Assembly (NCBI GenBank): GCA_963965975.1
Contig: OZ014417.1
Coordinates: 2,151,821-2,215,820, forward strand
DNA: 64,000 nucleotides
Direction: 5' to 3'
Source: Xestospongia bergquistia
Taxonomy: Eukaryota; Porifera; Demospongiae; Haplosclerida; Petrosiidae
The notes under the pieces were generated by a model. The model saw only the letters and a list, made by a program, of their open reading frames with translations, was not told where the DNA came from and made no database searches. The position numbers were made by a program, and so were the translations under genes. This document shows, piece by piece, positions 33,661 to 36,522 of this stretch; position 1 is the stretch's first letter, and each line of letters starts with the position of its first letter.

Positions 33661-34424
33661 TAAATTTATTATAATACATACACAGTTGTATCCTCTTGTA
33701 TGTGTTCATTGATGGCTTTAATCAACTTAAATTGATACCTACCAATAATATCTGTCAATGTCAAAACCTACAAGTTATTGAATTTGTTATATATTGTTCA
33801 ATTCCACACTTAATTGGAAATTGGACATGCAGAGAATCTCCAAATCCACAAAAATTTTAATCTATGCAAAAGCACATTATGTATGTCACCATAGGAATAA
33901 GTACTTCAGCAGCAACATGTGTGTTATCATAGCAAATTAACAACAATTACCATGGTACCAATGACCATAATAACATCACAATAACATATATGTCACCATA
34001 GCAACAATTACCAAAGCAACATTACATATGGACCTATGACCACCATAGTATCATTTTGTACACATTTTGGAAAGAAGCCATTTATTTCTGTGGACAATAC
34101 CTAACTGTGAGTGCTCCAAGCTTCTAGCTAGCCAGCTTTATTTTCTGCTTTCTGACAATCTTTTGCCAGATCTTCAAAAGTCAATATTTTGTTAACCAAT
34201 TTAGTCACACCTATTTATTGTAGCTGCAATTACGACATAAATTATTATTTCTAGCAGCAAGGTTCTGCAGTTTAATACTTTTCATCACACAAGTTTAAAA
34301 ATGGTAGATCAAGTATGTCATGTTAATAAAGTGCATAAATGATTGATTATTTAAACCTATTTTTTGCATAATAATTATTTATTATTTTCATGAAACAAAA
34401 GTCCTATGTAGCCACTGCATCAAC
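33661..34424. other. Intergenic DNA, AT-rich with CAACA/CACCAT short repeats
   Basis: 764 bp. 33890-34040 has loosely repeated words such as ACCATAGCAAC and ATAACATCAC. No gene recognised; the right end should contain the 3' UTR of the minus-strand methyltransferase gene. Confidence 0.5.
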
Positions 34425-36522
34425 TTAAGCAAGATTTTGCTCATTGACATTCTTTTCAGCAGCTAATTGTCTAAATGAAGCTTCTTCTGCCTCGTCCATA
34501 ACTTTTTGATATACCTCCTTGTTTTCTTGAGTTGAATTTTCCAAGTATTTATTTAGTGCAACAATGGCCTTTGAAGCTGCTGCAATTAAGTCAATGCTCC
34601 TTAACCCGCTTACCAATATTTGAGCATTCTCTTTAAGACCTGGTGTATCTTCAAAACCTGTATCCTCGCCTCTGAGATTATCAGTGAGTGGTTTTGAAGA
34701 ACCAGCTTCCCAGTATTTTCCACTAAAAATGAAAACTCCATTTCCATTAACTGTAAAATTAAGCTCTGCATTGCATTGGTTACCATCAGATTCAGACCAA
34801 GAGAGAGTTTTATTAACAAAGGCAATCTTCTTGATATAAACATTATTTATCCAAACTCTGCCAACTAATGATGGGCTCATTCCCTGCACTGAAATATAAA
34901 TACCATTTGTGTTAGTTGAATATTTTCCACTCCACATGAGCAAAGAAGTCTTTTGAAGGTTGGCAGCAGCAGCTGTTACATCCTCAGGTGTAGTATCATA
35001 TCCCTCAGAAAGAAGCCATTTCTCAATATGCTCAAGACCATTTGAGTCTTCCAGATACCTGCGTGCTTGAGCAGCATAGTTGGAGGCAAACTGTGGATCT
35101 GTCACCAAATGAATAGCAAGCTGTTCTGCAACATTACCTGCATCAGTCTTCAACATCATACAAATATGACCATTATGTCCACCTTTAATTATTTACCTCT
35201 CTTTTTTGGTTAAACCAAATGTTTCCATGTTTTTTTCTGGATTGGTCGTGTGTTGTCGTAACAATTTTACATCTTGACTAAGAGCCCCTAAATAATGAGC
35301 AGCCTTACTCGGTGGTGTATGAGCATATGGAACAGGAACAGTATAATCATCAAGTGCTTTGATTGCATTGATTTCTCGAGGACCATACTTAGTCAAGTCT
35401 CGCTTACTCTCCATAAGCCATGCATCCTCTTCTTTTAGTATGATTCCCAATCGAACAGCCATAGCAGAATCTATGTCCTTGTAAACTTTTGGAGGAATGT
35501 AGAATGTAGAGAATCTAATGACTCGTTTGGCCACATCAGGCTCATAGAACTTAGCTAAAGGTATTTCTTCAATAAGTGGTCTGCATACTGGATAGTGAGC
35601 ACTGATGTAGTGAGTTATCACATAGTCTTCTCCATATATCTTTTGCAAATGATCGATTAGAATGTGGAAGTTCTCATTGAGATAACCCTTCCTTCGAAAT
35701 CCAAGGTCTCCAACACATCCCACTTGCCAGATAATAACGTTAGCATCAGTGAGGATTTGATGCTGCCGAAGCAGTAGGTCAGTAGCTTCAAAAGTTTGTA
35801 GACCAGGAAAAGATGGATCTATTCCTAAGTCAGCAAATAGGCAGTCTTCTGCTGATATAGCAGGGAGCATGTATGCCTTGATACCTTAATAAAAGAGATA
35901 CAATCTACTTCAGTATTGCTTCTATAAGACCATATACATACCTTGTTTGAGAGCTATTTTAAAAGCTCGATGAGATGACAACACTAAGACTCCAGGATGT
36001 CCATAGAAGATTGCAACAACATTAAGTCCCTTACGAGCATAAAAGAGACACACCTCAGCTATCTGGACATCTGTGTCATAACGTTTTTTGTCATCTGCAT
36101 AGAAAACATATAAATCCATTGCATCTGGATTCAGCTCCTTGATGAAAACCTCGGTAGCAGGATCAGCAACACAGAAGAGGACTTTATCTGCAGACTTGAT
36201 ATGTGAAACTGCTTCAAGAGAAAACTGGCCAACACTTTTGATACCTGAACCTATAATGACAAGAGATCCCTTGTCTTTTGCAAACTTGAGATCCGATTCA
36301 AAGTAATCTATAGAATAAAAATGACAACACTGACATAAACTTGTATAATGATAACATTACATATAATATCTTACCCATTTTCTGTGCTTCATGAGCTATG
36401 AAGCTTGTAAGATAGTTCCACTTCTCTTCTTCCTTGAATTGAGAAGGAGATAGTTTCTTAGCAGATTTCATGATGTGTTTAGGTTCAACTGAATAAGTAC
36501 GCACTAATTTTCCTGTGAAGGT
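34425..36522 (-). CDS. Borosin-type alpha-N-methyltransferase-like protein with C-terminal extension
   Basis: Predicted 614 aa from ATG at 36471. Exons on the minus strand: 36375-36522 (start inside), 35942-36307, 35216-35884, 34425-35137; introns of 67, 57 and 78 bp. Residues 46-290 form a tetrapyrrole (SAM) methylase domain that follows OphMA, the omphalotin N-methyltransferase, nearly block by block: GSLVIIGSGIKSVGQ, CVADPATEVFI, DLYVFY, FYGHPGV, MLPAISAEDCLFADLGIDPS, WQVGCVGDLGF, AKRVIRFSTFYIPPK. From memory of OphMA, Tyr63, Tyr66 and Arg72 correspond to Tyr99, Tyr102 and Arg108; Tyr76 is Asp here. Residues 379-440 look like the Nif11/LigA-type helices found in borosin precursors (WLLSEGYDTTPEDV); 441-545 form a beta-rich part with two SGKY motifs; the end is helical. 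No typical hydrophobic core peptide is seen. Exon 3/4 joint is uncertain: a better-looking donor at 35196 would break the frame. Expected activity: SAM-dependent methylation of peptide backbone amides. Confidence 0.82.

Follow-up and report, generated by a model that had tools for sequence, protein, structure and literature searches.

A probable pseudogene from a putative type III borosin family encoded by a demosponge genome

Does a sponge carry, in its own nuclear genome, a gene of the borosin family of ribosomal backbone N-methylation, whose best-known members are fungal, and is the copy found at this locus a working one? Symbionts are usually regarded as the makers of bioactive metabolites found in sponges, as PMC11253845 mentions in passing, and an intact host gene of this family would be a direct candidate source inside the animal. 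Such methylation is not confined to borosins; the proteusin enzyme EreM also performs it (PMC11285071). The stretch of DNA analysed here (the window, 64,000 nucleotides) corresponds to C7:2151821-2215820 of the assembly searched, which comprises 146,460,797 bases in 21 contigs.

The list of open reading frames contains four minus-strand blocks spanning 36522 to 34425, limits that the initial annotation had taken as the extent of a borosin-type methyltransferase gene. Position 36522 is merely the upstream limit of an open frame. The ATG at 36471 corresponds to the start in the paralogues described below, and from it the gene runs on the minus strand to an in-frame TAA (36471-35193, Table 1). 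Three short introns had also been proposed. Introns 1 and 2 are common to three paralogues of the same genome (A, B and C), with counterparts of 116, 114 and 49 nt for the former and of 60 nt in each for the latter. The supposed third intron is the TAA itself, a single codon at 35193-35195 which forms the sole break between the last two blocks, both lying in one frame. The residues MLP directly after intron 2 are also the first residues of proteins P0001-P0003, P0006, P0007, P0010, P0014 and P0019. Behind the stop, the predicted structure of 34428-35192 (pLDDT 90.7) is composed of a helix bundle in the place of the borosin-binding domain, followed by eight strands and a helical hairpin.

Table 1. 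Coordinates of the window gene (positions within the window) and of the intact paralogues on contig C13
Feature	Location	Strand	Description
Exon 1	36375..36471	-	ATG and donor position match paralogues A, B, C; begins MKSAKKLSPSQFKEEEKWNYL
Intron 1	36308..36374	-	67 nt, GT..AG; same position in A, B, C
Exon 2	35942..36307	-	SAM-binding and active-site half of methyltransferase
Asp codon GAT	36069..36071	-	residue 112; site of OphMA Tyr76 / SonM Tyr71
Intron 2	35885..35941	-	57 nt, GT..AG; same position in A, B, C
Exon 3, first part	35193..35884	-	second methyltransferase half and start of clasp/binding region; ends at TAA
Exon 3 behind stop	34425..35192	-	255 open codons; helix bundle, one eight-strand repeat, helical hairpin
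Paralogue A	L026 3439-7124	+	intact, 1,169 aa, two introns as in window gene
Paralogue B	L027 599-4282	+	intact, 1,169 aa, two introns as in window gene

Among PDB sequences, the first 384 residues of the deduced protein matched dbOphM best (E 2.8e-81), with further matches to OphA, MroMA and SonM. Borosin enzymes made up 25 of the 27 sequences listed and the other two were unrelated (E 0.31 and 0.33), with no tetrapyrrole or diphthine methylase below E 0.3. The Pfam match is the generic TP_methylase family, and the best NCBIfam score (28) lies far below the cut-off of 525. As only borosin enzymes match in PDB below E 0.3, the earlier assignment to the borosin family rather than to generic TP-methylases is upheld. 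The type I enzymes OphMA and dbOphMA, associated with the omphalotins, align over about 320 residues, with E values from that of dbOphM to 5.5e-76. In OphMA the C-terminus is formed by a short hydrophobic core; unlike OphMA, the window protein has no core and has Asp in place of Tyr76. Similarity to SonM of the type IV split borosin SonM/SonA (E 2.7e-41) lies in the methyltransferase domain, SonM using a separate precursor peptide according to PMC8429565.

To place the active-site residues, we used an alignment of 144 rows (four sponge models and two protein sets of 120 and 20), in which OphMA residue numbers were assigned through alignment to OphMA. The alignment confirmed Tyr99, Tyr102 and Arg108 in the window protein, together with the Asp at the Tyr76 position, all as previously noted, and equivalents of the catalytic Arg72, Tyr63 and Tyr66 and of the SAM-site Tyr98 are kept. 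Arg72 is present in 135 of 135 rows, the window included, while Tyr66 and Tyr98 are each found in 134 of 135 and Tyr63 in 126 of 134. The Tyr76 column holds Tyr in 134 of the 135 rows with a letter, including A, B and C, and the window is the sole exception; exon 2 lies outside the part covered by P0001 and P0002, which say nothing on this site. In SonM, the Y71F change lowers kcat/KM 98-fold as described in PMC8429565, and Tyr71 sits four residues after the catalytic arginine, the same spacing as that of the window Asp. KchMA Y83F is likewise described as significantly reduced (PMC11395268). By analogy, Asp at this site should harm at least as much as Phe.

The TAA interrupts a region that is coding without a break in A, B, C, P0001 and P0002 and that runs through family-conserved residues; the codon at its position is GAA (Glu) in A and B and CAA (Gln) in C, with Glu in P0001 and P0002. 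The clasp or borosin-binding region, open in A and B, holds a stop in the window copy unless this is spliced out. At the C-terminus, a TAA at 34425-34427 is followed by a TAG at 34404-34406, where P0001 is open. The open frame ends ...AEKNVNEQNLA, and the acidic alternating C-terminal tail that defines type III cores as described in PMC11395268 is absent. No further stop occurs within the 255 codons behind the in-frame TAA. Changes on the window branch number 5 at 225 sites before the stop (P0001 5, P0002 9) and 7 at 255 sites after it (P0001 5, P0002 6). The lack of acceleration and of later stops implies either very recent decay or a stop that is polymorphic, misassembled or tolerated. By the Nei-Gojobori method with Jukes-Cantor correction, which gives rough values here, dN/dS between the window copy and A is 0.17 before the stop (dS 0.69) and 0.36 over the 160 codons after it. 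Lacking the catalytic tyrosine, an uninterrupted frame and any core-like tail, the window copy fails as a fused borosin precursor, and the view of this copy as a working enzyme is not supported. Its sequence makes it a true member of the family, and its content marks it as a likely pseudogene.

A genome search for borosin-like sequence returned at least 64 matches, partly overlapping, of which 4 lie on C7, 20 on C13 and 40 on C14. Within approximately 21 kb of C13 are found A (L026) and B (L027), in tandem with starts about 5.2 kb apart, C on the minus strand (L028) and a fragment in L029. Paralogue C has a frameshift near residue 430 and a stop after 442. The methyltransferase parts of A and B are 2% different, and dN/dS between the two genes, calculated as above and rough given the few changes, is 0.12 for this part, 0.14 for the repeats, 0.11 for the C-terminal part and 0.36 for the tail. 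The 355 kb region C14:3695396-4050871 contains about 40 borosin-like matches among those listed, 29 of them with stops according to the match table, some of which may lie in introns, and tblastn on part of this array gave broken pieces. Some matches of equal score in this array are paired at a spacing of about 64 kb (3847645 and 3911441), which would fit the duplication of a block.

Paralogues A and B share an order of methyltransferase, binding region, repeats, helical-hairpin-like region, linker and acidic Thr/Glu tail. The repeats are about 110 aa long, with LSW-type motifs at 517, 627, 738, 844 and 956. The tail comprises 69 residues beginning TETTETTET, in which Thr/Glu blocks turn into Val/Glu before ending IIVL or VVAA; the very ends differ between the two proteins (EVEVVEVEIIVL versus EVEAVDVVAA). 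The last part of both aligns with P0035, from the fungus Clonostachys solani, and with P0013, the tails of which are Ala/Glu turning into Val and which we read as type III. In type III cores, acidic residues alternate with others, and the bacterial KchMA carries up to 11 modifications at residues 742-796, as described in PMC11395268. An acidic alternating C-terminal tail of this type is present in A and B. By analogy, the sponge tail would be the methylated core, and a role as a linker may also be considered given its low complexity. Relative to the type III systems AboMA and KchMA (by the description in PMC11395268), P0035 and P0013, the sponge proteins are alike in methyltransferase residues, binding region, repeats, hairpin and acidic tail. 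They differ in their animal host, their introns, the five LSW-type repeat motifs and a tail of Thr/Glu rather than Ala/Glu; the window copy departs further in having neither the tail, nor Tyr76, nor an open frame. The window protein, P0001 and P0002 each have one repeat and the helical hairpin and no acidic tail. In P0003, a C-terminal repeat at 784-826 scores barely above the Pfam cut-off for the OAA-family lectin sugar-binding domain (20.4 bits against 20). P0010, P0014 and P0015 are short sponge-type forms of 480-507 aa; they end in IIIQ or IIVLQ and may carry a core of another kind that is very short.

Several observations support the earlier claim that this is a resident nuclear animal gene. 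The assembly contains three Wnt loci (C6, C9 and C13), compared with none in 14 prokaryote controls, and the C13 contig bearing the paralogues is itself one of the Wnt carriers. Contig C21 is mitochondrial, and its COX1, translated with code 4, shows full identity over 522 aa to P0223, a record with Xestospongia muta at the head of its UniRef name (I6LIL5_XESMU, n=19, Demospongiae). This places the host among the demosponges and, Xestospongia being a haplosclerid genus, probably among the haplosclerids. The introns common to the paralogues and a contig of several Mb point in the same direction. Of five neighbouring ORFs scanned, three scored above the Pfam cut-off (ST7, glycosyl hydrolase family 2 and DUF383), one had a SET match below it and one had no match. 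Pieces of COX1 were also found on the nuclear-size contig C6 (3154917-3155898 and 3199148-3200446), several with TAG or TAA stops; these are probably nuclear copies of mitochondrial DNA.

The relationships of these genes were examined in a tree of 75 hand-picked rows, in which 13 sponge-type rows form one clade (100/99). Within this clade the window copy groups with P0001 (100/82), then with P0002, and then with A, B and C. P0001 and P0002, which share 84% and 82% identity with the query over 78% of its length, have an exon 3 that is open over 500 and 488 aa. The 42-row clade (97/93) that contains the sponge-type rows also takes in bivalves, Actinia, P0004, Desulforamulus and a group of 19 rows, of which those with names are bacterial. 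The fungal rows, that of Clonostachys included, fall outside. Placement of Actinia and P0009 is unsure because of their long branches. Holding the animal rows, P0008 and P0025 as one clade was not rejected (p-AU 0.425). The occurrence of borosin genes in sponges, bivalves and an anemone suggests either an old presence in animals or repeated gene transfer, and would be compatible with a single animal clade.

We consider it fairly probable that the window copy is degraded, has probably lost its function and belongs to a type III borosin family that this demosponge encodes itself. A and B would act like fungal and bacterial fused borosins: two chains would clasp each other, each methyltransferase domain would use SAM to methylate amides along the backbone of the partner's C-terminal tail, and a protease would then free the N-methylated peptide. 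The duplication behind the window copy would be old (dS about 0.7 to A and B). The lineage of this copy has a single repeat and lacks the acidic tail, and in the copy itself the active-site tyrosine is also gone and the frame interrupted. Counting against decay are the unaccelerated branch, the dN/dS of 0.17 before the stop and the availability of a frame-keeping splice. A broader proposal, which we advance tentatively and to which we give slightly less than even credence, is that backbone N-methylated peptides are made ribosomally by this sponge itself and probably by other sponges. The C13 type III genes would be active and self-methylating in a family whose copies arise and die quickly (an intact tandem pair, a frameshifted copy, a fragment and the stop-ridden C14 array), and the core-less C7 lineage would have been, or still be, a second functional form in related species, with the window copy as its decayed member.

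An unlikely alternative is that this C7 lineage (window, P0001 and P0002) is a core-less paralogue with a role of its own, as a short methyltransferase or pseudo-enzyme working in trans or paired with C13-type chains, the window stop being allelic, erroneous or the functional terminus of the protein. The open exon 3 of P0001 and P0002, with the same single repeat and missing tail, would suit such a role, as would the unraised branch rate and low dN/dS before the stop, and split borosins demonstrate that a core-less enzyme can work (PMC8429565). It is opposed by the Asp, which replaces the tyrosine of the 134 other rows, by the position of the stop inside the binding region and by the two further stops where P0001 is open. 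Somewhat less probable again is an assembly error or polymorphism behind the TAA, and perhaps the Asp too, in a species with a sound gene here; a single stop ahead of 255 open codons on a branch of ordinary rate would fit, but the two C-terminal stops and the unique Asp would make for several separate lesions. Splicing over the stop, as implied by the third intron of the initial annotation, appears improbable. Scanning from 120 nt before the stop to 260 nt behind it yielded 31 frame-keeping GT/AG pairs, including that of the best-looking donor, AG/GTAAAT at 35196, with its one frame-keeping acceptor (35058; 138 nt). However, this pair would cut 46 codons from the binding region, the removed stretch is coding in P0003 and P0006 as well as in A, B, C, P0001 and P0002, and introns 1 and 2 are common to all three paralogues examined whereas the third is common to none. 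As every GT/AG pair removes residues that the relatives keep, splicing round the stop has no support from them. The remaining reading, on which the gene would encode an ordinary methylase of tetrapyrroles or diphthine or be a fungal or bacterial contaminant, was rejected as having a negligible probability, since the generic Pfam match stands against the PDB matches and NCBIfam scores, and contamination against a contig of several Mb, the introns, the Wnt gene on C13 and the separate sponge-type clade.

The lasting result is thus the intact C13 pair A and B and not the window copy; the latter is the wrong one to express and the pair is the better discovery. The earlier statement that no metazoan borosin is known does not hold, as PMC11395268 (2024) names one from the octocoral Paramuricea clavata and mentions fused borosins in metazoans in its discussion, and homologues from bivalves and a sea anemone are present in databases. 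The Paramuricea protein is likewise an animal gene of the borosin family, from an octocoral host and in a network cluster of its own (PMC11395268). With that case in print, the sponge genes extend the known family to sponges, alongside bivalves and the anemone, rather than providing a first metazoan example; our literature searches, which miss most subscription papers, found no report of a sponge borosin. Some animals may, as far as can be read from sequence, make borosin-type methylated peptides themselves. The database homologues occur in scallops, Mya and the sea anemone Actinia, and the bivalve proteins (Mya arenaria P0044, Pecten P0026, Ylistrum P0031 and Argopecten P0041) are 396-485 aa long with no repeats seen. 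P0044 and P0025, both 396 aa, have Val/Ile-rich ends that look like fused core peptides, and the fungal P0136 is similar near its end; such an end is absent from the three scallop proteins P0026, P0031 and P0041. P0009, a eukaryotic EukProt transcript of 768 aa, has by eye two tandem borosin-like methyltransferase domains. In P0154 (Actinia tenebrosa), a long-branched row, the motif Lys-Ala-Asn-Ala-Val-Ile-Ala occurs three times in the C-terminal part.
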